Source: Aphelocoma coerulescens
Taxonomy: Eukaryota > Chordata > Aves > Passeriformes > Corvidae
Length of the DNA: 64,000 nucleotides
Direction: 5' to 3'
NCBI RefSeq assembly: GCF_041296385.1
Contig: NW_027184085.1
Coordinates: 8,489,301 to 8,553,300, forward strand
Part shown: positions 1-64,000 of the stretch, one piece after another
Layout of the letters: each line of letters opens with the position of its first letter
Numbering within the stretch: the stretch's first letter is position 1
Translations under genes and position numbers: made by a program
Notes under the pieces: generated by a model
Seen by the model: only the letters and a program-made list of their open reading frames with translations
Told to the model about the DNA's origin: nothing
Databases searched by the model: none

Positions 1-1750
1 TAGAGAGAAGGACGTTGTGCGTGCGGGACGGCGTCAAACACTTTGCACAAGTCCCAGCAGACGAGGTCACGCGCTCTGCCCCTATCCACCAATGCTGTAG
101 CCCTACCCACAGATGGTTACCAAAATTGCCAGGAATGGCAACTTTCCCCTTTGGAAAGCCACGCTGCCTGTTACCTATCACCTCTTTGCTTTCCAGACGC
201 CTCAGCTGAGGTTCCAGCAGAAGCAGTGCCAGCGTCTTGCCTGGCACGGAGGTCAGACTGACTCCTTTGTATTCCCGTGCTCTTCTGCTCTCCCCTTTTT
301 AAAAACAAGGGCTATACTTCCCCTCCTCCACAGGTATCAGGGACAAGACACCATTTTTCCAATATGATCCAGGGTGGCCTAGCAACTCCATCTGACAGTT
401 CCCTAAGGACCCGCTAATGAATCTCTTCATGTCCCACAGACTTGCACATGTTCGGGTTCCTAAGATGGTCTCAAACCTCATCCTCTCCTACAGTGGCCTT
501 GGGCTCTTCACTCTTCACACGGGGCTCCCTGCATTTGCCTTCTGCAACTTGGGCAGCGTGGCTGGAGCACTCGCACTGAAGAGGGACGCACAGACGTTGC
601 TGAGAACCTCAGCGTTCTCTTTGCCCAGGACAGCCACGTCTCCCCTTTCCTTACGCACATTATCGCTAACATTCTTTTGCTTGCAAGAGATCTAGCGAAG
701 CCTGCCCTCCCACCCTTGACAGCCCTGGCCAGACTCAATTCTAAAGGGGCCTTGGCAAGCCTAACCTTGTCTCTAGCTTACCGCACCCTGTCCCTGTGTT
801 CCTTTCAGGCCACCTGTCCTCCTTCCCGCTTCCTGAAACTTTCTCTTTTTGCTCAGAGTTTGCCCAGCAGCTCCCTAGCCATCCGTGGATGCCTCCTGGC
901 GTTTTCGCACCAGTTCCCCCTGCTTCAAATGCATCACTCCTCAGCTTGGAGGAAGGGGATCCTTGAAATCCAGCCACATTCTTGGGCCCCTCTGTCCTCC
1001 AGGCCTCTATCATCTGGCACTCTGTCAAGTACATCCTTGAAGAGCCCAAAGTCTGCTCTCTCAAGTCCGGGCCAGGGAGTTCACTGGGTGACCGGCTCAC
1101 TGTCCCGAGGATCTCCTACTCCAACACCCCGTGGTCGCTGCAGCCAAGGCTGCCTTGGAGCACCGTATTCCCCGCCAGCTCCTCCTATTGGTGAGCACAC
1201 GGCCTCTGTCCTTGCTGGCTCCTCAGTCACTTGCGCAAGGGAGTTGTCAGTGACACATCCCAGAAACCTCCCACGTGGCTTGTGCCCTGCCACGTTGCCT
1301 CTCCAAAAGATATCGCTGCGGTTCAAAACCCCACTGAGGCCCAGGGCTTGCAAACGCAAAACCACTACCATCCGGCTATACGGGGCTTCGTCCACTCCAT
1401 CCTCCCGCATGGATGGGCCTGTACCAGACCCCAACCCCTCTAACATCCCGTGCCTCTGGTTCCCCCTTAACCTGGACCCACAAGCTCTCCAATGGCTCCT
1501 CATCCTAACCCAGGAACATTTCCATACTTTCCACTTGCTCACTGAAACACGCACAGCTAAACCCCGCCTCACCTCCACACCCTCTTTTCCCAACTGTCTA
1601 AAACCTTCCAATCCAATGCCCCACTCATAGGAGCAATCCCACAATGTCTCCATGAGGCCAGGGAGATCATGCCTGCCCAGGCATGCCTATGCCCTCAACT
1701 CCTCTTCCTTCTTCCCCATATTACGTGTGTTTGTGCAAAGGCATCTGAAA
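1..1750 (-). mobile_element. Decayed CR1-type LINE ORF2 fragment, unit 1
   Basis: Read on the minus strand, this is a degenerate CR1 ORF2 (endonuclease plus reverse transcriptase). From 1750 downward: the start of the endonuclease domain with a recognisable NARSMGNKQEE-like stretch (here N-MGKKEEEL, about 1700-1725), then ETLWDCSYEW (about 1625-1653), VDEAPY, and a block reading DIFWRGNVAGHK then RGRFLGCVTDN. The linker follows (about 740-1090). Next comes the N-terminal part of the reverse transcriptase (KRMLAI..., then a stretch matching the WKRGNITPIFKKG region near 300-330, then [16 protein letters not shown]...KEVIG near 190-250, then [16 protein letters not shown] at the left edge). Frameshifts and stops break it throughout. 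The endonuclease GDFN-type motif reads GVLN (about 1321-1332). The catalytic YADD region and the 3' end are missing, because the fragment ends at the microsatellite. It is inactive. Family assignment comes from remembered conserved strings, not a search. Confidence 0.85.
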
Positions 1751-2306
1751 CTACTGCCAAGTCTTCTCTACTTCACTCAAACGGGCCGGGCCCAGCTCCC
1801 TCAACCTTTCTCACAAGCGATGCGCTCCCGTCCCCTCTGCGTCTACAGGGCTGGCCTGCCCCTCCAAGATCTCCACACCTCCCATGGACTAAAGAGCCCG
1901 GAACAGGACACCACCGCTCCAGGGCAGGGCTCTGGCAATCCCAAAACACAACGCATTTTGCCGCACGGGGGACAGTCTCATTTTGTTCTCTGCCTGCCTC
2001 CTCCACCGAAGCAGGGAAAACACAACCATGCCCTCACTCTGGGGCCAAACACATGGGACAACAGACACAGAGCAAGCAACACAGCAGCAGCAAAGCTCCT
2101 CCTTTCTTCCTAATCCTTCTTCACTCAAGCCTATTTTTTAATGTCTTGTTGCCCTGCCTCCTCAGCTTCCAAGACTGCAGCGAGGCCACCTCCACGCAAG
2201 AACACCTCCAGGCCTCCAGCGCTCACACCCACACACACACGCCCTTGTACACTGCCACTACCCCCGGGCCCCTGCTGCAAGAGGGGCATCCCCAGGCCCG
2301 GCCCAC
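1751..2306. other. Spacer between CR1 fragment and distal enhancer cluster (all units)
   Basis: I find no gene, RNA gene or recognised repeat here. The stretch is C-rich on the + strand, with a short CA tract (2225-2243) and a T-run near 2134. A 228-codon + frame across it has no recognisable domain and is probably chance. The same spacer lies directly before each distal cluster: 5829-6384, 9874-10429, 13948-14503, 17998-18553, 22068-22623, 26134-26689, 30196-30751, 34261-34816, 38331-38886, 42412-42967, 46493-47048, 50558-51113, 54632-55187, 58717-59272 and 62786-63341. Some of it may be unrecognised 5' CR1 sequence. Confidence 0.6.
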
Positions 2307-2396
2307 TGACGTCACTGCTCATCCCTTGCAAGCACGAAAGGGAAACGCTGCCTAAGAGGAAAATAAAGGCAAGCCACAAAGTGAAAGGAAAAGTGA
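2307..2396 (+). promoter_or_regulatory. Distal CRE/ISRE/IRF motif cluster, unit 1
   Basis: Three immune-type motifs lie within 90 nt, 528 to 439 nt before the interferon ATG: a perfect palindromic CRE, TGACGTCA (2307-2314); an ISRE-like GAAAGGGAAAC matching GAAANNGAAAC (2336-2346); and AAGTGAAAGGAAAAGTGA (2379-2396), which holds two copies of the AAGTGA hexamer bound by IRF factors. In mammalian IFNB the enhanceosome also pairs an ATF/CRE-like site with IRF sites. Function here is inferred from motifs only. Confidence 0.55.
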
Positions 2397-2665
2397 CCAC
2401 GGCCACCACCAGGGCACTGCAGGTGGAAAAGATGCTTGGGCACAAAGAGAAACTTCAGCTGCACAGCACAGGCCTTGCAGCTGGCCCTGCAGCTGACCAA
2501 GAACACCCAACAACCCTCCCCGACACAGCTGACCCCGACGCCTCCGACCCAGCGCTTTCATAACCCCACTCACCCACTACTGCCACCCCACTGCCACCAC
2601 AATCCCCAACCACGGACACCCCAACAAACCACTGCCCCGAGACCACCACAGCCACCAGCCCAGAC

Positions 2666-2732
2666 TGGAAACCACGGGCGGGAACTCCCAGCAATCAGAA
2701 AGCGATGAAGGGAAAGCTGCCGCGATACAAAG
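2666..2732 (+). promoter_or_regulatory. Proximal interferon promoter (kappaB, IRF, TATA-like), unit 1
   Basis: A perfect kappaB site GGGAACTCCC (2680-2689) is followed 8 nt later by GAAAGCGATGAAGGGAAAG (2698-2716), an IRF-type element with GAAA cores, and then by a weak TATA-like GATACAAAG (2724-2732), about 105 nt before the ATG. A start site near 2755-2765 would give a 5' UTR of about 75 nt. The arrangement fits virus-inducible type I interferon promoters that respond to IRF3/IRF7 and NF-kappaB. A kappaB site was, as I recall, described for the avian IFNB-type promoter, which complicates subtype assignment. Confidence 0.65.
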
Positions 2733-2834
2733 CCGCACACCCGGCACCACCCCAAGCACAGCCACCACCAGCACCAGCGCCGAGCCTCACCAGCCTCCTG
2801 CCCAGCACCACCCCACAGCACCCACAGACCCACC

Positions 2835-3407
2835 ATGGCTGCGCCCAACGCCCCACAGCCACGCCTGCCGCACGCCGCCCCGGCACTCCTGCTCCTCCTC
2901 ACGGCTCTCGCCACCACCCTCGCCTGCCAACAGCTCTGGACACACGACGACACCTTCCCCGGCGACGCACTCCGCCTCCTCCAGGACGTGGCTCCCGGCC
3001 ACGCACAGCCCTGCCACCTCCAAGAGCCGCCCTTCTTCCCCGACACCCTCCTCCACAACAACCTCCGCCCGCACCAAGCCGCCGCCACCGCCCTACGCAT
3101 CCTCCAGAACCTCTTCCACACCCTCGGCACCAACAGCACCCGCCAGCACTGGCACAGCCAGGCTCGCAACGACCTCCTCAACAAACTCCAGCACTACATC
3201 CACCACCTCGAGCAATGCCTCCCCGACAACGCCACGCTCTTCAAAGGACCACGCAACCCTCTGCTCACCATCAACAAGTACTTCAGGGACATCCAACTCT
3301 TCCTCCACGCCCACAACCACAGCGCCTGCGCCTGGGAACACGTCCGCCTCGAAGCTCGCACCTCTTTACAGCACCTCCACAACCTCACCCGCACCATGCG
3401 CCGCTAG
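2835..3407 (+). CDS. IFNA-like: Type I interferon (IFN-alpha-like), copy 1
   Basis: This encodes a secreted antiviral cytokine that would signal through the IFNAR1/IFNAR2 receptor and JAK-STAT to induce interferon-stimulated genes. It is a single-exon gene of 190 codons, the usual avian length. The ATG sits in a strong Kozak context (CCACCATGG). Residues 1-30 form a signal peptide with a leucine-rich core (about 16-25), and cleavage after A30 leaves C31 as the mature N-terminus. Four cysteines (31, 60, 128, 165) match the conserved type I pairs 31-128 and 60-165. The helix-E signature spans Y149-W167, ending in CAW, followed by EHVRLEA. N-glycosylation sequons are at N100, N132, N161 and N183. 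The mature chain is histidine-rich (17 of 160). The short C-terminus (HNLTRTMRR) recalls avian IFNA, but the LQHYIHHLEQC helix recalls IFNB, so the subtype is open. P142 is encoded CCT, shared with copies 3 and 5. Confidence 0.93.
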   Translation: MAAPNAPQPRLPHAAPALLLLLTALATTLACQQLWTHDDTFPGDALRLLQDVAPGHAQPCHLQEPPFFPDTLLHNNLRPHQAAATALRILQNLFHTLGTNSTRQHWHSQARNDLLNKLQHYIHHLEQCLPDNATLFKGPRNPLLTINKYFRDIQLFLHAHNHSACAWEHVRLEARTSLQHLHNLTRTMRR

Positions 3408-3619: not shown

Positions 3620-3694
3620 TTATTTATTCATTTATTTATTTATTTATTTATTTATTCACTTATTTATTCACTTATTTATGCCACCGAAAATAAA
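3620..3694 (+). promoter_or_regulatory. 3' UTR AU-rich element and poly(A) signal, copy 1
   Basis: A 60-nt tract of overlapping ATTTA pentamers (3620-3679), with several UUAUUUAUU-type nonamers, lies 212 nt after the stop. An AATAAA hexamer follows at 3689-3694. Such class II AU-rich elements destabilise interferon and cytokine mRNAs through TTP and related proteins. The tract has one TTCA interruption near its start and two near its end. Confidence 0.85.
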
Positions 3695-3987: not shown

Positions 3988-4060
3988 TCCATCCATCCCA
4001 TCCATCCATCCATCCATCCATCCATCCATCCATCCATCCATCCATCCATCCATCCATCCA
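3988..4060 (+). repeat. (ATCC)n microsatellite, unit 1
   Basis: 73 nt of ATCC repeats with a one-base insertion (ATCCCATCC) near the left end. On the minus strand it runs in frame out of the CR1 codons for L-D-G-W. Confidence 0.97.
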
Positions 4061-5828
4061 ATCCATGGCTCTCTGACTTAGAGAGAAGGACGTTGTGCGT
4101 GCGGGACGGCGTCAAACACTTTGCACAAGTCCCGGCAGACGAGGTCACGCGCTCTGCCCCTATCCACCAATGCTGTAGCCCTACCCACAGATGGTTACCA
4201 AAATTGCCAGGAATGGCAACTTTCCCCTTTGGAAAGCCACGCTGCCTGTTACCTATCACCTCTTTGCTTTCCAGACGCCTCAGCTGAGGTTCCAGCAGAA
4301 GCAGTGCCAGCGTCTTGCCTGGCACGGAGGTCAGACTGACTCCTTTGTATTCCCGTGCTCTTCTGCTCTCCCCTTTTTAAAAACAAGGGCTATACTTCCC
4401 CTCCTCCACAGGTATCAGGGACAAGACACCATTTTTCCAATATGATCCAGGGTGGCCTAGCAACTCCATCTGACAGTTCCCTAAGGACCCGCTAATGAAT
4501 CTCTTCATGTCCCACAGACTTGCACATGTTCGGGTTCCTAAGATGGTCTCAAACCTCATCCTCTCCTACAGTGGCCTTGGGCTCTTCACTCTTCACACGG
4601 GGCTCCCTGCATTTGCCTTCTGCAACTTGGGCAGCGTGGCTGGAGCACTCGCACTGAAGAGGGACGCACAGACGTTGCTGAGAACCTCAGCGTTCTCTTT
4701 GCCCAGGACAGCCACGTCTCCCCTTTCCTTACGCACATTATCGCTAACATTCTTTTGCTTGCAAGAGATCTAGCGAAGCCTGCCCTCCCACCCTTGACAG
4801 CCCTGGCCAGACTCAATTCTAAAGGGGCCTTGGCAAGCCTAACCTTGTCTCTAGCTTACCGCACCCTGTCCCTGTGTTCCTTTCAGGCCACCTGTCCTCC
4901 TTCCCGCTTCCTGAAACTTTCTCTTTTTGCTCAGAGTTTGCCCAGCAGCTCCCTAGCCATCCGTGGATGCCTCCTGGCGTTTTCGCACCAGTTCCCCCTG
5001 CTTCAAATGCATCACTCCTCAGCTTGGAGGAAGGGGATCCTTGAAATCCAGCCACATTCTTGGGCCCCTCTGTCCTCCAGGCCTCTATCATCTGGCACTC
5101 TGTCAAGTACATCCTTGAAGAGCCCAAAGTCTGCTCTCTCAAGTCCGGGCCAGGGAGTTCACTGGGTGACCGGCTCACTGTCCCGAGGATCTCCTACTCC
5201 AACACCCCGTGGTCGCTGCAGCCAAGGCTGCCTTGGAGCACCGTATTCCCCACCAGCTCCTCCTATTGTTGAGCACACGGCCTCTGTCCTTGCTGGCTCC
5301 TCAGTCACTTGCGCAAGGGAGTTGTCAGTGACACATCCCAGAAACCTCCCACGTGGCTTGTGCCCTGCCACGTTGCCTCTCCAAAAGATATCGCTGCGGT
5401 TCAAAACCCCACTGAGGCCCAGGGCTTGCAAACGCAAAACCACTACCATCCAGCTATACGGGGCTTCGTCCACTCCATCCTCCCGCATGGATGGGCCTGT
5501 ACCAGACCCCAACCCCTCTAACATCCCGTGCCTCTGGTTCCCCCTTAACCTGGACCCACAAGCTCTCCAATGGCTCCTCATCCTAACCCAGGAACATTTC
5601 CATACTTTCCACTTGCTCACTGAAACACGCACAGCTAAACCCCGCCTCACCTCCACACCCTCTTTTCCCAACTGTCTAAAACCTTCCAATCCAATGCCCC
5701 ACTCATAGGAGCAATCCCACAATGTCTCCATGAGGCCAGGGAGATCATGCCTGCCCAGGCATGCCTGTGCCCTCAACTCCTCTTCCTTCTTCCCCATATT
5801 ACGTGTGTTTGTGCAAAGGCATCTGAAA
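4061..5828 (-). mobile_element. Decayed CR1 ORF2 fragment, unit 2
   Basis: Complete copy of the antisense fragment, from the microsatellite edge to the NMGKKEEELRAQ endonuclease start (about 5760-5797), which is open here because the base that gives a stop in unit 1 is C. A private variant near 5270 turns the unit-1 TTGG into TTGT. Confidence 0.85.
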
Positions 5829-6384
5829 CTACTGCCAAGTCTTCTCTACTTCACTCAAACGGGCCGGGCCCAGCTCCCTCAGCCTTTCTCACAAGCGATG
5901 CGCTCCCGTCCCCTCTGCGTCTACAGGGCCGGCCTGCCCCTCCAAGATCTCCACACCTCCCATGGACTAAAGAGCCCGGAACAGGACACCACCGCTCCAG
6001 GGCAGGGCTCTGGCAATCCCAAAACACAACGCATTTTGCCGCACGGGGGACAGTCTCATTTTGTTCTCTGCCTGCCTCCTCCACCGAAGCAGGGAAAACA
6101 CAACCATGCCCTCACTCTGGGGCCAAACACATGGGACAACAGACACAGAGCAAGCAACACAGCAGCAGCAAAGCTCCTCCTTTCTTCCTAATCCTTCTTC
6201 ACTCAAGCCTATTTTTTAATGTCTTGTTGCCCTGCCTCCTCAGCTTCCAAGACTGCAGCGAGGCCACCTCCACGCAAGAACACCTCCAGGCCTCCAGCGC
6301 TCACACCCACACACACACGCCCTTGTACACTGCCACTACCCCCGGGCCCCTGCTGCAAGAGGGGCATCCCCAGGCCCGGCCCAC

Positions 6385-6474
6385 TGACGTCACTGCTCAT
6401 CCCTTGCAAGCACGAAAGGGAAACGCTGCCTAAGAGGAAAATAAAGGCAAGCCACAAAGTGAAAGGAAAAGTGA
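6385..6474 (+). promoter_or_regulatory. Distal CRE/ISRE/IRF cluster, unit 2
   Basis: CRE at 6385-6392, ISRE-like at 6414-6424 and the double AAGTGA element at 6457-6474, all unchanged from unit 1. Confidence 0.55.
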
Positions 6475-6743
6475 CCACGGCCACCACCAGGGCACTGCAG
6501 GTGGAAAAGATGCTTGGGCACAAAGAGAAACTTCAGCTGCACAGCACAGGCCTTGCAGCTGGCCCTGCAGCTGACCAAGAACACCCAACAACCCTCCCCG
6601 ACACAGCTGACCCCGACGCCTCCGACCCAGCGCTTTCATAACCCCACTCACCCACTACTGCCACCCCACTGCCACCACAATCCCCAACCACGGACACCCC
6701 AACAAACCACTGCCCCGAGACCACCACAGCCACCAGCCCAGAC

Positions 6744-6912: not shown

Positions 6913-7485
6913 ATGGCTGCGCCCAACGCCCCACAGCCACGCCTGCCGCACGCCGCCCCGGCACTCCTGCTCCTCCTCACGGCTCTCGCCACCACCCTCG
7001 CCTGCCAACAGCTCTGGACACACGACGACACCTTCCCCGGCGACGCACTCCGCCTCCTCCAGGACGTGGCTCCCGGCCACGCACAGCCCTGCCACCTCCA
7101 AGAGCCGCCCTTCTTCCCCGACACCCTCCTCCACAACAACCTCCGCCCGCACCAAGCCGCCGCCACCGCCCTACGCATCCTCCAGAACCTCTTCCACACC
7201 CTCGGCACCAACAGCACCCGCCAGCACTGGCACAGCCAGGCTCGCAACGACCTCCTCAACAAACTCCAGCACTACATCCACCACCTCGAGCAATGCCTCC
7301 CCGACAACGCCACGCTCTTCAAAGGACCACGCAACCCGCTGCTCACCATCAACAAGTACTTCAGGGACATCCAACTCTTCCTCCACGCCCACAACCACAG
7401 CGCCTGCGCCTGGGAACACGTCCGCCTCGAAGCTCGCACCTCTTTACAGCACCTCCACAACCTCACCCGCACCATGCGCCGCTAG
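6913..7485 (+). CDS. IFNA-like: Type I interferon (IFN-alpha-like), copy 2
   Basis: The protein is identical to copy 1. The only CDS change I can see is silent: P142 is CCG instead of CCT, as in most copies. Just past the stop it carries the A-type base at 7521 (T in copy 1), which makes CACGTG. It has the shortest AU-rich element of the array, so its mRNA could be the most stable. Confidence 0.93.
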   Translation: MAAPNAPQPRLPHAAPALLLLLTALATTLACQQLWTHDDTFPGDALRLLQDVAPGHAQPCHLQEPPFFPDTLLHNNLRPHQAAATALRILQNLFHTLGTNSTRQHWHSQARNDLLNKLQHYIHHLEQCLPDNATLFKGPRNPLLTINKYFRDIQLFLHAHNHSACAWEHVRLEARTSLQHLHNLTRTMRR

Positions 7486-7697: not shown

Positions 7698-7748
7698 TTA
7701 TTTATTTATTTATTTATTTATTCACTTATTTATGCCACCGAAAATAAA
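7698..7748 (+). promoter_or_regulatory. Shortened AU-rich element and poly(A) signal, copy 2
   Basis: Only 36 nt of ATTTA tract (7698-7733), 24 nt shorter than in most copies. AATAAA is at 7743-7748. Confidence 0.85.
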
Positions 7749-51539: not shown

Positions 51540-51641
51540 CCGCACACCCGGCACCACCCCAAGCACAGCCACCACCAGCACCAGCGCCGAGCCTCACCAG
51601 CCTCCTGCCCAGCACCACCCCACAGCACCCACAGACCCACC

Positions 51642-52501: not shown

Positions 52502-52794
52502 GACCCCTGACAAAACACTTGCCACTGCCTCTCGTCTCACTAACTCTGCAAACTCAGCCTTTGGGCCGGCGGAAAGCCACCTCTACTCAGCACCTACTCC
52601 TCTACTCCCAGCCCTGCTCCAGAAAGGGCTCTGCACAGCCCCTACCCGCTCTTCTCACTGCCACCTGCCCAAGCAGGTTTGTGCAGCAACCCCTTTGGAA
52701 AAACATTCCCAGCATTTGCCCAACATCACAAAAATAAAGACAGGATAAGGCTGGAAAGCACCACTGCAGCTCATCTGCTTTATCCACAGAGTCC

Positions 52795-52863
52795 TCCATC
52801 CATCCCATCCATCCATCCATCCATCCATCCATCCATCCATCCATCCATCCATCCATCCATCCA
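52795..52863 (+). repeat. (ATCC)n microsatellite, unit 13
   Basis: 69 nt with the ATCCCATCC interruption, one repeat longer than in unit 9. Confidence 0.97.
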
Positions 52864-54631
52864 ATCCATGGCTCTCTGACTTAGAGAGAAGGACGTTGTG
52901 CGTGTGGGACGGCGTCAAACACTTTGCACAAGTCCCGGCAGACGAGGTCACGCGCTCTGCCCCTATCCACCAATGCTGTAGCCCTACCCACAGATGGTTA
53001 CCAAAATTGCCAGGAATGGCAACTTTCCCCTTTGGAAAGCCACGCTGCCTGTTACCTATCACCTCTTTGCTTTCCAGACGCCTCAGCTGAGGTTCCAGCA
53101 GAAGCAGTGCCAGCGTCTTGCCTGGCACGGAGGTCAGACTGACTCCTTTGTATTCCCGTGCTCTTCTGCTCTCCCCTTTTTAAAAACAAGGGCTATACTT
53201 CCCCTCCTCCACAGGTATCAGGGACAAGACACCATTTTTCCAATATGATCCAGGGTGGCCTAGCAACTCCATCTGACAGTTCCCTAAGGACCCGCTAATG
53301 AATCTCTTCATGTCCCACAGACTTGCACATGTTCGGGTTCCTAAGATGGTCTCAAACCTCATCCTCTCCTACAGTGGCCTTGGGCTCTTCACTCTTCACA
53401 CGGGGCTCCCTGCATTTGCCTTCTGCAACTTGGGCAGCACGGCTGGAGCACTCGCACTGAAGAGGGACGCACAGACGTTGCTGAGAACCTCAGCGTTCTC
53501 TTTGCCCAGGACAGCCACGTCTCCCCTTTCCTTACGCACATTATCGCTAACATTCTTTTGCTTGCAAGAGATCTAGCGAAGCCTGCCCTCCCACCCTTGA
53601 CAGCCCTGGCCAGACTCAATTCTAAAGGGGCCTTGGCAAGCCTAACCTTGTCTCTAGCTTACCGCACCCTGTCCCTGTGTTCCTTTCAGGCCACCTGTCC
53701 TCCTTCCCGCTTCCTGAAACTTTCTCTTTTTGCTCAGAGTTTGCCCAGCAGCTCCCTAGCCATCCGTGGATGCCTCCTGGCGTTTTCGCACCAGTTCCCC
53801 CTGCTTCAAATGCATCACTCCTCAGCTTGGAGGAAGGGGATCCTTGAAATCCAGCCACATTCTTGGGCCCCTCTGTCCTCCAGGCCTCTATCATCTGGCA
53901 CTCTGTCAAGTACATCCTTGAAGAGCCCAAAGTCTGCTCTCTCAAGTCCGGGCCAGGGAGTTCACTGGGTGACCGGCTCACTGTCCCGAGGATCTCCTAC
54001 TCCAACACCCCGTGGTCGCTGCAGCCAAGGCTGCCTTGGAGCACCGTATTCCCCGCCAGCTCCTCCTATTGGTGAGCACACGGCCTCTGTCCTTGCTGGC
54101 TCCTCAGTCACTTGCGCAAGGGAGTTGTCAGTGACACATCCCAGAAACCTCCCACGTGGCTTGTGCCCTGCCACGTTGCCTCTCCAAAAGATATCGCTGC
54201 GGTTCAAAACCCCACTGAGGCCCAGGGCTTGCAAACGCAAAACCACTACCATCCAGCTATACGGGGCTTCGTCCACTCCATCCTCCCGCATGGATGGGCC
54301 TGTACCAGACCCCAACCCCTCTAACATCCCGTGCCTCTGGTTCCCCCTTAACCTGGACCCACAAGCTCTCCAATGGCTCCTCATCCTAACCCAGGAACAT
54401 TTCCATACTTTCCACTTGCTCACTGAAACACGCACAGCTAAACCCCGCCTCACCTCCACACCCTCTTTTCCCAACTGTCTAAAACCTTCCAATCCAATGC
54501 CCCACTCATAGGAGCAATCCCACAATGTCTCCATGAGGCCAGGGAGATCATGCCCGCCCAGGCATGCCTGTGCCCTCAACTCCTCTTCCTTCTTCCCCAT
54601 ATTACGTGTGTTTGTGCAAAGGCATCTGAAA
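52864..54631 (-). mobile_element. Decayed CR1 ORF2 fragment, unit 14
   Basis: Same fragment. T at 52905 and the AC dinucleotide at 53439-53440 match unit 10. Confidence 0.85.
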
Positions 54632-55187
54632 CTACTGCCAAGTCTTCTCTACTTCACTCAAACGGGCCGGGCCCAGCTCCCTCAGCCTTTCTCACAAGCG
54701 ATGCGCTCCCGTCCCCTCTGCGTCTACAGGGCTGGCCTGCCCCTCCAAGATCTCCACACCTCCCATGGACTAAAGAGCCCGGAACAGGACACCACCGCTC
54801 CAGGGCAGGGCTCTGGCAATCCCAAAACACAACGCATTTTGCCGCACGGGGGACAGTCTCATTTTGTTCTCTGCCTGCCTCCTCCACAGAAGCAGGGAAA
54901 ACACAACCATGCCCTCACTCTGGGGCCAAACACATGGGACAACAGACACAGAGCAAGCAACACAGCAGCAGCAAAGCTCCTCCTTTCTTCCTAATCCTTC
55001 TTCACTCAAGCCTATTTTTTAATGTCTTGTTGCCCTGCCTCCTCAGCTTCCAAGACTGCAGCGAGGCCACCTCCACGCAAGAACACCTCCAGGCCTCCAG
55101 CGCTCACACCCACACACACACGCCCTTGTACACTGCCACTACCCCCGGGCCCCTGCTGCAAGAGGGGCATCCCCAGGCCTGGCCCAC

Positions 55188-55277
55188 TGACGTCACTGCT
55201 CATCCCTTGCAAGCACGAAAGGGAAACGCTGCCTAAGAGGAAAATAAAGGCAAGCCACAAAGTGAAAGGAAAAGTGA
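55188..55277 (+). promoter_or_regulatory. Distal CRE/ISRE/IRF cluster, unit 14
   Basis: CRE at 55188-55195, ISRE-like at 55217-55227 and double AAGTGA at 55260-55277, intact. Confidence 0.55.
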
Positions 55278-55546
55278 CCACGGCCACCACCAGGGCACTG
55301 CAGGTGGAAAAGATGCTTGGGCACAAAGAGAAACTTCAGCTGCACAGCACAGGCCTTGCAGCTGGCCCTGCAGCTGACCAAGAACACCCAACAACCCTCC
55401 CCGACACAGCTGACCCCGACGCCTCCGACCCAGCGCTTTCATAACCCCACTCACCCACTACTGCCACCCCACTGCCACCACAATCCCCAACCACGGACAC
55501 CCCAACAAACCACTGCCCCGAGACCACCACAGCCACCAGCCCAGAC

Positions 55547-55613
55547 TGGAAACCACGGGCGGGAACTCCCAGCAATCAGAAAGCGATGAAGGGAAAGCTG
55601 CCGCGATACAAAG
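55547..55613 (+). promoter_or_regulatory. Proximal interferon promoter, unit 14
   Basis: kappaB at 55561-55570, IRF-type element at 55579-55597 and TATA-like box at 55605-55613, unchanged. Confidence 0.65.
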
Positions 55614-55715
55614 CCGCACACCCGGCACCACCCCAAGCACAGCCACCACCAGCACCAGCGCCGAGCCTCACCAGCCTCCTGCCCAGCACCACCCCACAGC
55701 ACCCACAGACCCACC

Positions 55716-56288
55716 ATGGCTGCGCCCAACGCCCCACAGCCACGCCTGCCGCACGCCGCCCCGGCACTCCTGCTCCTCCTCACGGCTCTCGCCACCACCC
55801 TCGCCTGCCAACAGCTCTGGACACACGACGACACCTTCCCCGGCGACGCACTCCGCCTCCTCCAGGACGTGGCTCCCGGCCACGCACAGCCCTGCCACCT
55901 CCAAGAGCCGCCCTTCTTCCCCGACACCCTCCTCCACAACAACCTCCGCCCGCACCAAGCCGCCGCCACCGCCCTACGCATCCTCCAGAACCTCTTCCAC
56001 ACCCTCGGCACCAACAGCACCCGCCAGCACTGGCACAGCCAGGCTCGCAACGACCTCCTCAACAAACTCCAGCACTACATCCACCACCTCGAGCAATGCC
56101 TCCCCGACAACGCCACGCTCTTCAAAGGACCACGCAACCCGCTGCTCACCATCAACAAGTACTTCAGGGACATCCAACTCTTCCTCCACGCCCACAACCA
56201 CAGCGCCTGCGCCTGGGAACACGTCCGCCTCGAAGCTCGCACCTCTTTACAGCACCTCCACAACCTCACCCGCACCATGCGCCGCTAG
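55716..56288 (+). CDS. IFNA-like: Type I interferon (IFN-alpha-like), copy 14
   Basis: It shows no difference from copy 10 that I can read, including the 3' UTR C-to-T (56448). Common protein, P142 CCG, T-type 3' flank. Confidence 0.93.
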   Translation: MAAPNAPQPRLPHAAPALLLLLTALATTLACQQLWTHDDTFPGDALRLLQDVAPGHAQPCHLQEPPFFPDTLLHNNLRPHQAAATALRILQNLFHTLGTNSTRQHWHSQARNDLLNKLQHYIHHLEQCLPDNATLFKGPRNPLLTINKYFRDIQLFLHAHNHSACAWEHVRLEARTSLQHLHNLTRTMRR

Positions 56289-56500
56289 CGCAAACACCCA
56301 CCCCCACACACCGACCCACGTCCTCGTGCCTCCCGCCACGCTCCCGCACCAACGCCCCAAACCCACCCCGTGCCTCACGCCTCCCCTCTCCTGGGACAAC
56401 AGACACGGCTGCAACCACCGCACGGCACCCGCAGCCTGCGACCACTGTGCCTCCATTCATACAGCCTCTCCCATCGATTTGGACAAAGGACTTTCTCTAC

Positions 56501-56575
56501 TTATTTATTCATTTATTTATTTATTTATTTATTTATTCACTTATTTATTCACTTATTTATGCCACCGAAAATAAA
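56501..56575 (+). promoter_or_regulatory. AU-rich element and poly(A) signal, copy 14
   Basis: 60-nt ATTTA tract (56501-56560), copy-1 pattern. AATAAA at 56570-56575. Confidence 0.85.
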
Positions 56576-56868
56576 GACCCCTGACAAAACACTTGCCACT
56601 GCCTCTCGTCTCACTAACTCTGCAAACTCAGCCTTTGGGCCGGCGGAAAGCCACCTCTACTCAGCACCTACTCCTCTACTCCCAGCCCTGCTCCAGAAAG
56701 GGCTCTGCACAGCCCCTACCCGCTCTTCTCACTGCCACCTGCCCAAGCAGGTTTGTGCAGCAACCCCTTTGGAAAAACATTCCCAGCATTTGCCCAACAT
56801 CACAAAAATAAAGACAGGATAAGGCTGGAAAGCACCACTGCAGCTCATCTGCTTTATCCACAGAGTCC

Positions 56869-56948
56869 TCCATCCATCCATCCATCCATCCATCCATCCA
56901 TCCATCCATCCATCCATCCATCCATCCATCCATCCATCCATCCATCCA
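56869..56948 (+). repeat. (ATCC)n microsatellite, unit 14
   Basis: 80 nt, uninterrupted (20 repeats), the longest in the window. Confidence 0.97.
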
Positions 56949-58716
56949 ATCCATGGCTCTCTGACTTAGAGAGAAGGACGTTGTGCGTGCGGGACGGCGT
57001 CAAACACTTTGCACAAGTCCCGGCAGACGAGGTCACGCGCTCTGCCCCTATCCACCAATGCTGTAGCCCTACCCACAGATGGTTACCAAAATTGCCAGGA
57101 ATGGCAACTTTCCCCTTTGGAAAGCCACGCTGCCTGTTACCTATCACCTCTTTGCTTTCCAGACGCCTCAGCTGAGGTTCCAGCAGAAGCAGTGCCAGCG
57201 TCTTGCCTGGCACGGAGGTCAGACTGACTCCTTTGTATTCCCGTGCTCTTCTGCTCTCCCCTTTTTAAAAACAAGGGCTATACTTCCCCTCCTCCACAGG
57301 TATCAGGGACAAGACACCATTTTTCCAATATGATCCAGGGTGGCCTAGCAACTCCATCTGACAGTTCCCTAAGGACCCGCTAATGAATCTCTTCATGTCC
57401 CACAGACTTGCACATGTTCGGGTTCCTAAGATGGTCTCAAACCTCATCCTCTCCTACAGTGGCCTTGGGCTCTTCACTCTTCACACGGGGCTCCCTGCAT
57501 TTGCCTTCTGCAACTTGGGCAGCGTGGCTGGAGCACTCGCACTGAAGAGGGACGCACAGACGTTGCTGAGAACCTCAGCGTTCTCTTTGCCCAGGACAGC
57601 CACGTCTCCCCTTTCCTTACGCACATTATCGCTAACATTCTTTTGCTTGCAAGAGATCTAGCGAAGCCTGCCCTCCCACCCTTGACAGCCCTGGCCAGAC
57701 TCAATTCTAAAGGGGCCTTGGCAAGCCTAACCTTGTCTCTAGCTTATCGCACCCAGTCCCTGTGTTCCTTTCAGGCCACCTGTCCTCCTTCCCGCTTCCT
57801 GAAACTTTCTCTTTTTGCTCAGAGTTTGCCCAGCAGCTCCCTAGCCATCCGTGGATGCCTCCTGGCGTTTTCGCACCAGTTCCCCCTGCTTCAAATGCAT
57901 CACTCCTCAGCTTGGAGGAAGGGGATCCTTGAAATCCAGCCACATTCTTGGGCCCCTCTGTCCTCCAGGCCTCTATCATCTGGCACTCTGTCAAGTACAT
58001 CCTTGAAGAGCCCAAAGTCTGCTCTCTCAAGTCCGGGCCAGGGAGTTCACTGGGTGACCGGCTCACTGTCCCGAGGATCTCCTACTCCAACACCCCGTGG
58101 TCGCTGCAGCCAAGGCTGCCTTGGAGCACCGTATTCCCCGCCAGCTCCTCCTATTGGTGAGCACACGGCCTCTGTCCTTGCTGGCTCCTCAGTCACTTGC
58201 GCAAGGGAGTTGTCAGTGACACATCCCAGAAACCTCCCACGTGGCTTGTGCCCTGCCACGTTGCCTCTCCAAAAGATATCGCTGCGGTTCAAAACCCCAC
58301 TGAGGCCCAGGGCTTGCAAACGCAAAACCACTACCATCCAGCTATACGGGGCTTCGTCCACTCCATCCTCCCGCATGGATGGGCCTGTACCAGACCCCAA
58401 CCCCTCTAACATCCCGTGCCTCTGGTTCCCCCTTAACCTGGACCCACAAGCTCTCCAATGGCTCCTCATCCTAACCCAGGAACATTTCCATACTTTCCAC
58501 TTGCTCACTGAAACACGCACAGCTAAACCCCGCCTCACCTCCACACCCTCTTTTCCCAACTGTCTAAAACCTTCCAATCCAATGCCCCACTCATAGGAGC
58601 AATCCCACAATGTCTCCATGAGGCCAGGGAGATCATGCCCGCCCAGGCATGCCTATGCCCTCAACTCCTCTTCCTTCTTCCCCATATTACGTGTGTTTGT
58701 GCAAAGGCATCTGAAA
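56949..58716 (-). mobile_element. Decayed CR1 ORF2 fragment, unit 15
   Basis: Same fragment. T at 57747 and A at 57755 match unit 11. Confidence 0.85.
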
Positions 58717-59272
58717 CTACTGCCAAGTCTTCTCTACTTCACTCAAACGGGCCGGGCCCAGCTCCCTCAGCCTTTCTCACAAGCGATGCGCTCCCGTCCC
58801 CTCTGCGTCTACAGGGCTGGCCTGCCCCTCCAAGATCTCCACACCTCCCATGGACTAAAGAGCCCGGAACAGGACACCACCGCTCCAGGGCAGGGCTCTG
58901 GCAATCCCAAAACACAACGCATTTTGCCGCACGGGGGACAGTCTCATTTTGTTCTCTGCCTGCCTCCTCCACCGAAGCAGGGAAAACACAACCATGCCCT
59001 CACTCTGGGGCCAAACACATGGGACAACAGACACAGAGCAAGCAACACAGCAGCAGCAAAGCTCCTCCTTTCTTCCTAATCCTTCTTCACTCAAGCCTAT
59101 TTTTTAATGTCTTGTTGCCCTGCCTCCTCAGCTTCCAAGACTGCAGCGAGGCCACCTCCACGCAAGAACACCTCCAGGCCTCCAGCGCTCACACCCACAC
59201 ACACACGCCCTTGTACACTGCCACTACCCCCGGGCCCCTGCTGCAAGAGGGGCATCCCCAGGCCCGGCCCAC

Positions 59273-59362
59273 TGACGTCACTGCTCATCCCTTGCAAGCA
59301 CGAAAGGGAAACGCTGCCTAAGAGGAAAATAAAGGCAAGCCACAAAGTGAAAGGAAAAGTGA
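59273..59362 (+). promoter_or_regulatory. Distal CRE/ISRE/IRF cluster, unit 15
   Basis: CRE at 59273-59280, ISRE-like at 59302-59312 and double AAGTGA at 59345-59362, intact. Confidence 0.55.
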
Positions 59363-59631
59363 CCACGGCCACCACCAGGGCACTGCAGGTGGAAAAGATG
59401 CTTGGGCACAAAGAGAAACTTCAGCTGCACAGCACAGGCCTTGCAGCTGGCCCTGCAGCTGACCAAGAACACCCAACAACCCTCCCCGACACAGCTGACC
59501 CCGACGCCTCCGACCCAGCGCTTTCATAACCCCACTCACCCACTACTGCCACCCCACTGCCACCACAATCCCCAACCACGGACACCCCAACAAACCACTG
59601 CCCCGAGACCACCACAGCCACCAGCCCAGAC

Positions 59632-59698
59632 TGGAAACCACGGGCGGGAACTCCCAGCAATCAGAAAGCGATGAAGGGAAAGCTGCCGCGATACAAAG
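59632..59698 (+). promoter_or_regulatory. Proximal interferon promoter, unit 15
   Basis: kappaB at 59646-59655, IRF-type element at 59664-59682 and TATA-like box at 59690-59698. G at 59713 is shared with units 5 and 7 but not with the block-A partner, unit 11. Confidence 0.65.
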
Positions 59699-59800
59699 CC
59701 GCACACCCGGCAGCACCCCAAGCACAGCCACCACCAGCACCAGCGCCGAGCCTCACCAGCCTCCTGCCCAGCACCACCCCACAGCACCCACAGACCCACC

Positions 59801-60373
59801 ATGGCTGCGCCCAACGCCCCACAGCCACGCCTGCCGCACGCCGCCCCGGCACTCCTGCTCCTCCTCACGGCTCTCGCCACCACCCGCGCCTGCCAACAGC
59901 TCTGGACACACGACGACACCTTCCCTGGCGACGCACTCCGCCTCCTCCAGGACGTGGCTCCCGGCCACGCACAGCCCTGCCACCTCCAAGAGCCGCCCTT
60001 CTTCCCCGACACCCTCCTCCACAACAACCTCCGCCCGCACCAAGCCGCCGCCACTGCCCTACGCATCCTCCAGAACCTCTTCCACACCCTCGGCACCAAC
60101 AGCACCCACCAGCACTGGCACAGCCAGGCTCGCAACGACCTCCTCAACAAACTCCAGCACTACATCCACCACCTCGAGCAATGCCTCCCCGACAACGCCA
60201 CGCTCTTCAAAGGACCACGCAACCCGCTGCTCACCATCAACAAGTACTTCAGGGACATCCAACTCTTCCTCCACGCCCACAACCACAGCGCCTGCGCCTG
60301 GGAACACGTCCGCCTCGAAGCTCGCACCTCTTTACAGCACCTCCACAACCTCACCCGCACCATGCGCCGCTAG
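59801..60373 (+). CDS. IFNA-like: Type I interferon (IFN-alpha-like), copy 15, L29R and R103H
   Basis: It encodes the same variant protein as copy 11 (L29R, R103H) with the same silent markers (P42 CCT, T85 ACT, P142 CCG). The upstream G at -88 comes from a different lineage (units 5 and 7), suggesting a short conversion tract or a mosaic unit. Confidence 0.93.
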   Translation: MAAPNAPQPRLPHAAPALLLLLTALATTRACQQLWTHDDTFPGDALRLLQDVAPGHAQPCHLQEPPFFPDTLLHNNLRPHQAAATALRILQNLFHTLGTNSTHQHWHSQARNDLLNKLQHYIHHLEQCLPDNATLFKGPRNPLLTINKYFRDIQLFLHAHNHSACAWEHVRLEARTSLQHLHNLTRTMRR

Positions 60374-60585
60374 CGCAAACACCCACCCCCACACACCGAC
60401 CCACGTCCACGTGCCTCCCGCCACGCTCCCGCACCAACGCCCCAAACCCACCCCGTGCCTCACGCCTCCCCTCTCCTGGGACAACAGACACGGCTGCAAC
60501 CACCGCACGGCACCCGCAGCCTGCGACCACTGCGCCTCCATTCATACAGCCTCTCCCATCGATTTGGACAAAGGACTTTCTCTAC

Positions 60586-60660
60586 TTATTTATTCATTCA
60601 TTTATTTATTTATTTATTTATTCACTTATTTATTCACTTATTTATGCCACCGAAAATAAA
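60586..60660 (+). promoter_or_regulatory. AU-rich element and poly(A) signal, copy 15
   Basis: 60-nt tract (60586-60645), double TTCA pattern of copies 11 and 12. AATAAA at 60655-60660. Confidence 0.85.
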
Positions 60661-60953
60661 GACCCCTGACAAAACACTTGCCACTGCCTCTCGTCTCACT
60701 AACTCTGCAAACTCAGCCTTTGGGCCGGCGGAAAGCCACCTCTACTCAGCAGCTACTCCTCTACTCCCAGCCCTGCTCCAGAAAGGGCTCTGCACAGCCC
60801 CTACCCGCTCTTCTCACTGCCACCTGCCCAAGCAGGTTTGTGCAGCAACCCCTTTGGAAAAACATTCCCAGCATTTGCCCAACATCACAAAAATAAAGAC
60901 AGGATAAGGCTGGAAAGCACCACTGCAGCTCATCTGCTTTATCCACAGAGTCC

Positions 60954-61017
60954 TCCATCCATCCATCCATCCATCCATCCATCCATCCATCCATCCATCC
61001 ATCCATCCATCCATCCA
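60954..61017 (+). repeat. (ATCC)n microsatellite, unit 15
   Basis: 64 nt, uninterrupted. Confidence 0.97.
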
Positions 61018-62785
61018 ATCCATGGCTCTCTGACTTAGAGAGAAGGACGTTGTGCGTGCGGGACGGCGTCAAACACTTTGCACAAGTCCCAGCAGACGAG
61101 GTCACGCGCTCTGCCCCTATCCACCAATGCTGTAGCCCTACCCACAGATGGTTACCAAAATTGCCAGGAATGGCAACTTTCCCCTTTGGAAAGCCACGCT
61201 GCCTGTTACCTATCACCTCTTTGCTTTCCAGACGCCTCAGCTGAGGTTCCAGCAGAAGCAGTGCCAGCGTCTTGCCTGGCACGGAGGTCAGACTGACTCC
61301 TTTGTATTCCCGTGCTCTTCTGCTCTCCCCTTTTTAAAAACAAGGGCTATACTTCCCCTCCTCCACAGGTATCAGGGACAAGACACCATTTTTCCAATAT
61401 GATCCAGGGTGGCCTAGCAACTCCATCTGACAGTTCCCTAAGGACCCGCTAATGAATCTCTTCATGTCCCACAGACTTGCACATGTTCGGGTTCCTAAGA
61501 TGGTCTCAAACCTCATCCTCTCCTACAGTGGCCTTGGGCTCTTCACTCTTCACACGGGGCTCCCTGCATTTGCCTTCTGCAACTTGGGCAGCGTGGCTGG
61601 AGCACTCGCACTGAAGAGGGACGCACAGACGTTGCTGAGAACCTCAGCGTTCTCTTTGCCCAGGACAGCCACGTCTCCCCTTTCCTTACGCACATTATCG
61701 CTAACATTCTTTTGCTTGCAAGAGATCTAGCGAAGCCTGCCCTCCCACCCTTGACAGCCCTGGCCAGACTCAATTCTAAAGGGGCCTTGGCAAGCCTAAC
61801 CTTGTCTCTAGCTTACCGCACCCTGTCCCTGTGTTCCTTTCAGGCCACCTGTCCTCCTTCCCGCTTCCTGAAACTTTCTCTTTTTGCTCAGAGTTTGCCC
61901 AGCAGCTCCCTAGCCATCCGTGGATGCCTCCTGGCGTTTTCGCACCAGTTCCCCCTGCTTCAAATGCATCACTCCTCAGCTTGGAGGAAGGGGATCCTTG
62001 AAATCCAGCCACATTCTTGGGCCCCTCTGTCCTCCAGGCCTCTATCATCTGGCACTCTGTCAAGTACATCCTTGAAGAGCCCAAAGTCTGCTCTCTCAAG
62101 TCCGGGCCAGGGAGTTCACTGGGTGACCGGCTCACTGTCCCGAGGATCTCCTACTCCAACACCCCGTGGTCGCTGCAGCCAAGGCTGCCTTGGAGCACCG
62201 TATTCCCCGCCAGCTCCTCCTATTGGTGAGCACACGGCCTCTGTCCTTGCTGGCTCCTCAGTCACTTGCGCAAGGGAGTTGTCAGTGACACATCCCAGAA
62301 ACCTCCCACGTGGCTTGTGCCCTGCCACGTTGCCTCTCCAAAAGATATCGCTGCGGTTCAAAACCCCACTGAGGCCCAGGGCTTGCAAACGCAAAACCAC
62401 TACCATCCGGCTATACGGGGCTTCGTCCACTCCATCCTCCCGCATGGATGGGCCTGTACCAGACCCCAACCCCTCTAACATCCCGTGCCTCTGGTTCCCC
62501 CTTAACCTGGACCCACAAGCTCTCCAATGGCTCCTCATCCTAACCCAGGAACATTTCCATACTTTCCACTTGCTCACTGAAACACGCACAGCTAAACCCC
62601 GCCTCACCTCCACACCCTCTTTTCCCAACTGTCTAAAACCTTCCAATCCAATGCCCCACTCATAGGAGCAATCCCACAATGTCTCCATGAGGCCAGGGAG
62701 ATCATGCCCGCCCAGGCATGCCTATGCCCTCAACTCCTCTTCCTTCTTCCCCATATTACGTGTGTTTGTGCAAAGGCATCTGAAA
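61018..62785 (-). mobile_element. Decayed CR1 ORF2 fragment, unit 16
   Basis: Same fragment. G at 62409 matches unit 12. Confidence 0.85.
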
Positions 62786-63341
62786 CTACTGCCAAGTCTT
62801 CTCTACTTCACTCAAACGGGCCGGGCCCAGCTCCCTCAGCCTTTCTCACAAGCGATGCGCTCCCGTCCCCTCTGCGTCTACAGGGCTGGCCTGCCCCTCC
62901 AAGATCTCCACACCTCCCATGGACTAAAGAGCCCGGAACAGGACACCACCGCTCCAGGGCAGGGCTCTGGCAATCCCAAAACACAACGCATTTTGCCGCA
63001 CGGGGGACAGTCTCATTTTGTTCTCTGCCTGCCTCCTCCACCGAAGCAGGGAAAACACAACCATGCCCTCACTCTGGGGCCAAACACATGGGACAACAGA
63101 CACAGAGCAAGCAACACAGCAGCAGCAAAGCTCCTCCTTTCTTCCTAATCCTTCTTCACTCAAGCCTATTTTTTAATGTCTTGTTGCCCTGCCTCCTCAG
63201 CTTCCAAGACTGCAGCGAGGCCACCTCCACGCAAGAACACCTCCAGGCCTCCAGCGCTCACACCCACACACACACGCCCTTGTACACTGCCACTACCCCC
63301 AGGCCCCTGCTGCAAGAGGGGCATCCCCAGGCCCGGCCCAC

Positions 63342-63431
63342 TGACGTCACTGCTCATCCCTTGCAAGCACGAAAGGGAAACGCTGCCTAAGAGGAAAATA
63401 AAGGCAAGCCACAAAGTGAAAGGAAAAGTGA
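63342..63431 (+). promoter_or_regulatory. Distal CRE/ISRE/IRF cluster, unit 16
   Basis: CRE at 63342-63349, ISRE-like at 63371-63381 and double AAGTGA at 63414-63431. Upstream, A at 63301 is private and C at 63334 departs from unit 12. Confidence 0.55.
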
Positions 63432-63700
63432 CCACGGCCACCACCAGGGCACTGCAGGTGGAAAAGATGCTTGGGCACAAAGAGAAACTTCAGCTGCACA
63501 GCACAGGCCTTGCAGCTGGCCCTGCAGCTGACCAAGAACACCCAACAACCCTCCCCGACACAGCTGACCCCGACGCCTCCGACCCAGCGCTTTCATAACC
63601 CCACTCACCCACTACTGCCACCCCACTGCCACCACAATCCCCAACCACGGACACCCCAACAAACCACTGCCCCGAGACCACCACAGCCACCAGCCCAGAC

Positions 63701-63767
63701 TGGAAACCACGGGCGGGAACTCCCAGCAATCAGAAAGCGATGAAGGGAAAGCTGCCGCGATACAAAG
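63701..63767 (+). promoter_or_regulatory. Proximal interferon promoter, unit 16
   Basis: kappaB at 63715-63724, IRF-type element at 63733-63751 and TATA-like box at 63759-63767, unchanged. Confidence 0.65.
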
Positions 63768-63869
63768 CCGCACACCCGGCACCACCCCAAGCACAGCCAC
63801 CACCAGCACCAGCGCCGAGCCTCACCAGCCTCCTGCCCAGCACCACCCCACAGCACCCACAGACCCACC

Positions 63870-64000
63870 ATGGCTGCGCCCAACGCCCCACAGCCACGCC
63901 TGCCGCACGCCGCCCCGGCACTCCTGCTCCTCCTCACGGCTCTCGCCACCACCCTCGCCTGCCAACAGCTCTGGACACACGACGACACCTTCCCCGGCGA
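63870..64000 (+). CDS. IFNA-like: Type I interferon (IFN-alpha-like), copy 16, cut by window end
   Basis: The first 43 codons plus two bases are present: the whole signal peptide, C31 and the start of helix A. They match the common protein, with L29 and P42 CCC as in copy 12. The truncation is the window edge, not a mutation. Confidence 0.9.
   Translation, partial: MAAPNAPQPRLPHAAPALLLLLTALATTLACQQLWTHDDTFPG

Follow-up and report, generated by a model that had tools for sequence, protein, structure and literature searches.

The mammalian IFNA cluster, at the HACD4 locus, contains multiple intronless genes for interferon (IFN)-alpha beside one IFN-beta gene. Its copies undergo gene conversion, of which the porcine IFN genes reportedly provide a case, and the IFNA subtypes are diversified and of lower identity. 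In birds, an intron of UBAP2 houses IFN-alpha and IFN-beta (denoted IFN-UB1 and IFN-UB2), a single IFN-UB2 preceding IFN-UB1, with a median across birds of 3 genes at this locus (PMC13176653), and 3 to 10 IFN copies have been described on the Z chromosome (PMC5281639). Frogs possess intronless interferons, 24–37 per species, which fall into several clusters (PMC4928184). The present work concerns a 64,000-nt stretch of the genome of Aphelocoma coerulescens (contig NW_027184085.1, positions 8,489,301 to 8,553,300; referred to below as the window), which is the interior of a tandem array of at least 28 near-identical, intact copies of one interferon gene. To judge from its sequence, this gene is the multicopy avian IFN-alpha (IFN-UB1) of the UBAP2 locus, standing behind one IFN-beta-like IFN-UB2. 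Both the family and the locus are known; what is unusual is the size and the uniformity of the array. We consider it very probable that this is an intact IFN-UB1 array within a UBAP2 intron, shaped by crossing-over and conversion, which would provide an inducible output of high capacity.

The array resembles the described avian IFN-alpha/IFN-UB1 genes (the chicken IFN1 family) in lying at the UBAP2 locus after a single IFN-UB2 and in being intronless and multicopy. It differs from them in number, with at least 28 near-identical units against the median of 3, or the range of 3 to 10, that these sources give. The preliminary description of this stretch had called a satellite-like array at such identity unusual; for a bird, its size is indeed unusual against these counts. 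From the mammalian cluster it differs in its locus and in that one protein dominates; the frog interferons are similar in count, but they form several clusters and are not copies of one repeated unit. No interferon array of this kind was found in the literature, among the matches listed for open-licence full texts and judged by title and start of abstract.

Extent and uniformity of the array

Within the window, 15 complete units (u01–u15) and a partial one (u16) lie head to tail, with 15 complete and one partial IFN coding sequence (CDS), all on the + strand (Table 1). The gene is a single intronless frame of 573 nt, open in all 15 complete units and encoding 190 residues in each. The unit 1 product matched the PF00143 Interferon profile (E 6.4e-26; 91.9 bits against a cut-off of 26.8) and, in the PDB, solved mammalian IFNs (best E 1.6e-10). 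It has cysteines C31, C60, C128 and C165, with a CAW motif at 165, and its hydrophobic leader suggests a secreted protein. Twelve of the 15 products are identical, and the other three differ at residue 29, in the leader, or at residues 29 and 103. An array of intact homologous genes over 64 kb rules out a chance pattern. Nine long alternative frames of the unit gave no Pfam match above cut-off (the weak ones being Mucin, E 0.6, and I-TevI_ZnF, E 0.036), and no Rfam match reached the gathering score in positions 1–8200 of the window.

Unit starts are spaced 4045–4085 bp apart. An alignment of the units, proposed as a check in the preliminary description, gave pairwise differences of 0–0.47% (mean 0.30%) among the 15 complete ones, with 40 variable columns across all 16; gaps among the complete units are confined to two tracts. 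Without these tracts every complete unit of the window measures 3948 nt, and the uniform length of 3945 nt reported earlier departs from this only in the placement of borders. The same core had been called indel-free, which holds for the 15 complete units of the window but not outside it, as described below. A special cause for the absence of indels was considered and dropped as unnecessary: with so few substitutions, few indels would be expected, and an indel-free core in the window is unremarkable in itself.

A PF00143 profile search of the whole genome (1.33 Gb in 660 contigs) returned 39 matches, all 45 candidates being scored. Twenty-eight array genes occupy 111 kb of the contig that holds the window (C39, 72.3 Mb; C39:8483758-8595052), with non-array sequence on both sides within this one contig; u01–u16 of the window correspond to z03–z18 of the 28. 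The unplaced contig C556 (29,318 bp; C556:1-29318) consists of array throughout and adds seven complete genes, carried by six complete units plus a partial unit. Near its end C556 also carries one broken gene, and its last unit has 16 small indels, which suggest poor sequence there. Of the other matches, one is an interferon immediately preceding the array, two are single genes on C39 and one is a broken gene on C36. The earlier count of 15 complete genes and one partial gene, correct for the window, understates the array. All 35 complete genes (28 on C39 and 7 on C556) are open; 27 of them encode one protein, and there are four distinct proteins. Variants that distinguish copies occur at CDS 86, 126, 255, 308 and 426. 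Core indels beyond the window are found in z28, the last unit of the array (a 4-nt and an 8-nt insertion), in one of the six complete C556 units (a 1-nt deletion) and at the broken end of C556. Seven of the 35 copies carry the substitution L29R, two residues ahead of C31, with which the cysteines of the likely mature protein begin; this substitution may affect leader cleavage.

An array of this uniformity might have arisen in the computer, a few units having been expanded or duplicated by the assembler. Some blocks of units are near exact duplicates (0–2 substitutions), and the second array contig is unplaced and ends in the 16 small indels, both of which would fit such an artefact. However, non-array sequence flanks the C39 array on both sides, most block copies differ by substitutions or in the length of their TCCA tract, and each of the six complete C556 units is 2–5 substitutions away from its nearest C39 unit (these six have a mean of 5.3 differences among themselves and 9.3 to C39 units). 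The idea that C556 is a haplotig was set aside as unlikely, three C39 genes having a second, probably W-linked copy (see below). Since Z copies and probable W copies of these three genes are present, the genome probably comes from a female, and C556 is probably an extra piece of array and not a second Z haplotype; an error of assembly, if any, would then more likely be one of under-counting. An artefactual expansion is accordingly regarded as improbable.

The 27 complete C39 units differ by 0–20 substitutions per pair (mean 12.0), and near-identical units, with 0–2 differences, occur in ordered blocks (z11–z13/z15–z17, z16–z18/z21–z23 and z09–z11/z25–z27). Collinear near-identical neighbour pairs number six, whereas 5000 shuffles of unit order gave 0.5 on average and never more than 5; the threshold for near-identity (2 differences or fewer) was picked after the difference matrix was seen. 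In addition, four-gamete violations were found in 166 of 630 informative site pairs, giving at least 11 recombination intervals per 4 kb unit (122 of 465 pairs and 10 intervals in the window alone). The copying of blocks in order, together with violations within units, points to multi-unit unequal crossing-over plus conversion. The recent expansion and ongoing homogenisation that had been proposed from the uniformity of the units thus find support in the near-identity, the ordered block duplications and the four-gamete violations. In its multi-unit unequal crossing-over the array is like ribosomal DNA (rDNA)-like and higher-order-repeat arrays, but here the unit is a cytokine gene with a promoter-like stretch. 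Major histocompatibility complex (MHC) class II genes of birds are likewise immune genes homogenised by conversion; they are reported to retain high diversity, whereas this array has almost none at the protein level.

Had the array been amplified in one recent burst and not been homogenised since, the low divergence of the 27 units, on average 12 differences per 4 kb, would be accounted for. Such a burst would be expected to leave a star-like tree of units, without blocks or recombinant haplotypes, and both expectations are contradicted. Pairs at 0–2 differences stand beside pairs at up to 20, in blocks that preserve unit order, and these blocks, with the many four-gamete violations, imply that exchange continued after the copies existed. 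The core of IFN-UB2 also matches the array. A single burst is thus very improbable. Homogenisation by continuing exchange is consistent with the right edge as well: among the complete C39 units, core indels are confined to z28, whose nearest relative is 10 differences away, compared with 0–7 for the other 26, as expected if edges escape homogenisation.

Copies within this genome resemble one another more closely than they do the proteins of other named species. Among the best 120 of 203 homologues, the 13 best proteins from named species are 84–88% identical to the array protein, against units only 0–0.5% apart; one homologue, P0002, lies above this range, at 98%. P0002 is a protein-search cluster of 23 member sequences on an 84.3 Mb contig, and a second cluster, P0001, has 85 member sequences on two contigs, the longest of which (72,301,355 bp) exceeds C39 by 11 kb. 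These sizes could mean larger arrays in other assemblies or in a close relative, and they were not used as copy counts.

The shared core of IFN-UB1 and IFN-UB2

At this locus a 236-residue IFN-UB2-like gene (C39:8478395-8479105) is followed by the array, the order given in PMC13176653. When the CDS of this IFN-UB2 was compared with that of unit 1, successive parts differed at 53/172 sites (CDS 1–172), 0/121, 6/29, 1/183 and 22/65. The sole difference in the part of 183 sites is an array polymorphism, and here IFN-UB2 shares its base with 31 of the 35 array genes. None of 10000 permutations produced an identical run as long as the observed maximum of 125. The borders of the shared stretch lie near CDS 171 and 523, and the 29-nt patch with six differences, which stays different inside it, implies at least two tracts.

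For a comparison across species, 122 proteins (the best 120 of 203 homologues and two of this genome) were classed by C-terminal motif as UB1-like (45), UB2-like (71) or neither (6). The two-subtype test used 11 passerine species, each contributing one protein per subtype, this genome included; for Melanocharis, Hirundo and Bombycilla the two subtypes were taken from different records. Rows of Cinclus, Malurus, starling and sparrow were excluded as not coming from one species, and Lonchura was excluded because in its P0019 an IFN-UB1-like start is followed by an IFN-UB2-like end. The core was defined as residues 58–168, with borders from the UB1/UB2 alignment of this genome.

Within species, the UB1 and UB2 cores are 89.7% identical on average (54% in Vidua and 84–98% in the others), compared with 75.4 and 75.6% for orthologues. 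The tails behave in the opposite way, with 56.2% identity within species and 78.6 and 71.6% for orthologues. The nearest row was the other subtype of the same species for 20 of 22 cores and for none of the 22 tails. In the core tree, the UB1 and UB2 of a species group together for 10 of the 11 species, nine with strong support, and a UB1 clade is rejected by the core data (approximately unbiased test, p 6e-5). The tail tree, which included no chicken reference, consists of one UB1 clade (11 rows) and one UB2 clade, with support of 100/99; as the subtype labels come from C-terminal motifs, which are part of the tails, this test is not fully independent. The Lonchura pair, with 91/109 identities in the core and 27/27 at the N-terminus, departs from the tail pattern. 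P0019, from Lonchura striata, could be a natural chimera or a gene-model join.

The plain reading of this pattern would be recurrent conversion of the core in passerines, and the exchange of cores between IFN-alpha and IFN-beta looks general in that group. An AlphaFold model of the array product (mean predicted local distance difference test score, pLDDT, of 58), used for rough helix borders only, placed helix A at residues 43–52, B at 79–98, C at 108–128, D at 142–159 and E at 163–189. On this low-confidence model, the shared core would comprise the end of the AB loop and helices B–D, and the private parts would be helix A and most of E. IFNAR1 sits on helices B–D of interferons, and IFNAR2 on helix A, the AB loop and helix E. 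Strong selective constraint on a receptor-contacting core, and not conversion, might consequently be invoked to explain why the passerine IFN-alpha and IFN-beta cores are so alike. Constraint, however, would be expected to make orthologous cores as similar as paralogous ones, which is not seen, orthologues being about 25% different in the same core. Moreover, silent sites are identical too, with 0 differences over 125 bp against 31–34% on either side of the core. Constraint is therefore hardly credible as the cause, and recurrent conversion is retained.

No conversion between bird IFN-alpha and IFN-beta was found in the literature, within the scope given above for the array (titles and abstract starts of the open-licence matches listed). 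PMC13176653 describes IFN-UB1 and IFN-UB2 as having split separately within each bird order, which it calls convergent diversification; in its main text the words conversion, concerted, recombination, tandem and unequal do not occur.

The repeated unit and its chromosomal surroundings

At the sequence level, each complete unit was shown to carry its own promoter-like stretch, an intronless open gene, an AU-rich 3' region and a polyadenylation signal. The promoter-like stretch is exact in all 36 units, partial ones included. Its GGGAACTCCC, NF-kB-like by motif match only, was found by scan in all 36, at the place where IFN-UB2 has GGGAAATTCTC, while the IRF-like and TATA-like parts were assigned by visual comparison with the aligned IFN-UB2. 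The latter gene shares the whole plan, with GGGAAATTCTC, IRF-like and TATA-like elements in the matching place, and a TTATTTAT tract followed by AATAAA. The NF-kB-like motif would, if it is a working site, set the array apart from chicken, whose IFN-alpha promoters are said to be without NF-kB sites (PMC5281639). A distal cluster of four sites resembling IRF sites or interferon-stimulated response elements (ISRE) lies further upstream, and four such sites arose only once when the upstream 534 bp were shuffled 1000 times. This cluster belongs to the spacer and is therefore absent upstream of the first array gene.

The preliminary description had noted two simple-repeat tracts per unit. One of them, the TTAT tract, is better read as an AU-rich element of the 3'-untranslated region (3'-UTR), with 6–11 overlapping ATTTA motifs in each of the 35 units measured. 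Since IFN-UB2 has the same promoter and 3' plan, this tract is probably a regulatory element. The other, the TCCA tract, adjoins a reverse-transcriptase-like frame on the - strand, presumably CR1-like. A DNA search with the spacer, in which 40 of 397 candidates were scored, recovered 27 array spacers on C39 and seven plus a fragment on C556, and elsewhere only matches of 68–73%, on C34, C3, C5 and C4; these identify its first 1.75 kb as an old dispersed repeat. The left edge of the C39 array falls near unit position 2600 and its right edge roughly 80 nt inside the following unit (where identity is 86%), with gene blocks at both ends and spacer only in between. The assumption that it starts and ends at unit borders was dropped after this alignment of the edges.

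Table 1. Features of the interferon array in the window (positions counted from its first nucleotide)
Feature	Position	Strand	Basis or remark
Distal cluster of 4 IRF/ISRE-like sites, unit 1	2336..2452	+	GAAANNGAAA scan, one mismatch allowed
Proximal promoter-like stretch, unit 1	2677..2735	+	NF-kB-like GGGAACTCCC at 2680, IRF-like GAAAGCGATGAAGGGAAAG, TATA-like GATACAAA
IFN-UB1 CDS, unit 1	2835..3407	+	Frame; PF00143
TTAT tract (3'-UTR AU-rich element), unit 1	3620..3679	+	9 overlapping ATTTA; AATAAA just after, at 3689
TCCA tract at unit junction, unit 1	3988..4066	+	Beside degenerate antisense reverse-transcriptase-like remnant
Spacer, unit 2	4079..6600	+	First ~1.75 kb an old dispersed repeat
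IFN-UB1 CDS, unit 2	6913..7485	+	Frame
Shortest AU-rich element, unit 2	7698..7733	+	24 nt fewer; 6 ATTTA
IFN-UB1 CDS, unit 3	10958..11530	+	Frame
IFN-UB1 CDS, unit 4	15032..15604	+	Frame
AU-rich element, unit 4	15817..15864	+	12 nt shorter
IFN-UB1 CDS, unit 5	19082..19654	+	Frame
IFN-UB1 CDS, unit 6	23152..23724	+	Frame
IFN-UB1 CDS, unit 7	27218..27790	+	Frame; L29R in leader
IFN-UB1 CDS, unit 8	31280..31852	+	Frame
Three-unit block u09–u11	32511..44742	+	Second copy is u13–u15 (1, 0, 1 substitutions)
IFN-UB1 CDS, unit 9	35345..35917	+	Frame
IFN-UB1 CDS, unit 10	39415..39987	+	Frame
IFN-UB1 CDS, unit 11	43496..44068	+	Frame; L29R + R103H
IFN-UB1 CDS, unit 12	47577..48149	+	Frame
Three-unit block u13–u15	48808..61035	+	Copy of u09–u11; TCCA tract lengths unlike
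IFN-UB1 CDS, unit 13	51642..52214	+	Frame
IFN-UB1 CDS, unit 14	55716..56288	+	Frame
IFN-UB1 CDS, unit 15	59801..60373	+	Frame; L29R + R103H
IFN-UB1 CDS, unit 16	63870..64000	+	Frame; truncated by window end, complete on contig

To the left of the array lies a UBE2R2-like exon, which we take to be UBE2R2, and to its right a UBAP2-family exon (PF12478, E 2.8e-16; C39:8607377-8607466, - strand); what are presumably further UBAP2 exons flank the array at about 8474.4 kb and 8597.8 kb on C39. As the UBAP2 exon is on the - strand, the interferon genes would be antisense to UBAP2. The UBAP2-family exon has a second copy on C36, a contig of 4.68 Mb, and so has the UBE2R2-like exon (96% protein identity); C36:1864994-1996000 is a diverged copy of the UBE2R2-UBAP2 locus, with stretches 66–89% identical that are collinear on both sides of the array. 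One broken interferon lies between the collinear stretches; a PF00143 profile search found no array on C36, its DNA having been read in five 10-kb stretches only. A PF08067 gene, presumably HNRNPK, has two copies too, on C39 and C34. Third hits of the UBAP2-family exon on C26 and of the UBE2R2-like exon on C29 are, we assume, the paralogues UBAP2L and CDC34. In chicken, turkey or duck, W copies are on record for UBAP2, UBE2R2 and HNRNPK, among other genes (PMC4278454). C39 is probably, though not proven to be, the Z chromosome of a female bird, and the locus copy on C36 is probably W-linked. Elsewhere on C39, two single type I interferons with a CSW motif lie on the - strand (C39:34460796-34461263 and 50185807-50186274), and these fit the single-copy bird genes at HACD4 and MOB3B described in PMC13176653.

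The position of the array bears on the possibility that most copies are passengers without transcription, all the IFN-alpha coming from a few genes. The array lies antisense to UBAP2 (PMC13176653), whose transcription could interfere, and it might be subject to such silencing. The 35 of 35 open frames and the promoter-like stretch exact in 36 of 36 units speak for working genes instead, an argument that is weak because homogenisation could preserve both without selection on each copy. That most copies are silent seems to us unlikely, although the chance is not a small one.

Proposed origin, function and implications

In the account favoured here, the array would have started with unequal crossing-over between two neighbouring gene blocks, each reaching from about position -235 relative to the ATG to slightly beyond the TCCA tract, an event that would have trapped the repeat-bearing spacer between the copies. 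Gene blocks at both ends are what would be expected if the array began by crossing-over of two neighbouring interferon genes. Its growth and uniformity would be due to multi-unit unequal crossing-over and gene conversion. Conversion would have run mainly from the array to IFN-UB2 and would have recurred across many lineages of passerines; the promoter, helix A and helix E, at the ends, would have escaped it and kept the subtypes apart. The predicted outcome is a virus-inducible, high-capacity output of IFN-alpha, nearly all of it one protein, that would scale with copy number.

Several points weigh against this account. Both the number of copies and their order are taken from a single assembly, which, as C556 shows, is not fully resolved. 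The left-edge gene has 8 differences from the consensus in 1472 nt, compared with 3–11 in about 4065 for complete units, but these are mostly within the first 20 nt, where homology begins, and constitute weak evidence. A TATAWAW scan of the array promoter found none, and the GAAANNGAAA scan missed the proximal IRF-like element; a match to the NF-kB-like motif arises in 4% of shuffled promoters, and the NF-kB and IRF sites are motif matches. The CDS is no less variable than the spacer (15.7 vs 9.3 variable sites per kb; nucleotide diversity, pi, of 0.0037 vs 0.0023), the most variable stretch being that before the junction (20.3 variable sites per kb). Purifying selection on the CDS is suggested by the four nonsynonymous and five synonymous changes over the 35 genes, although the resulting ratio of nonsynonymous to synonymous polymorphism (pN/pS 0.28, binomial p 0.057) is only suggestive. 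Vidua, one of the 11 species, is without core pairing, and the direction of conversion, from the array to IFN-UB2, is argued from copy number.

A more far-reaching version of the same account can be offered tentatively. In passerines, an IFN-alpha template might keep overwriting the middle of IFN-beta, so that the subtypes would share one co-evolving core (helices B–D) and differ only in promoter and in helices A and E. In this species, where the template would be an rDNA-like array, Z copy number and sex might set interferon capacity, and the length of the AU-rich element could serve as a tuning knob for each copy.

The usual explanation of interferon subtypes is that genes duplicate and then diverge. 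In this array the copies have stayed near identical and the IFN-beta gene appears to be partly rewritten, and what is stored may be dosage and not diversity. A difference in antiviral response according to Z dosage would be predicted. Assemblies that collapse repeats would under-count avian interferons, and conversion of the core, if general in birds, could explain the order-wise splits of IFN-UB1 and IFN-UB2 described in PMC13176653.

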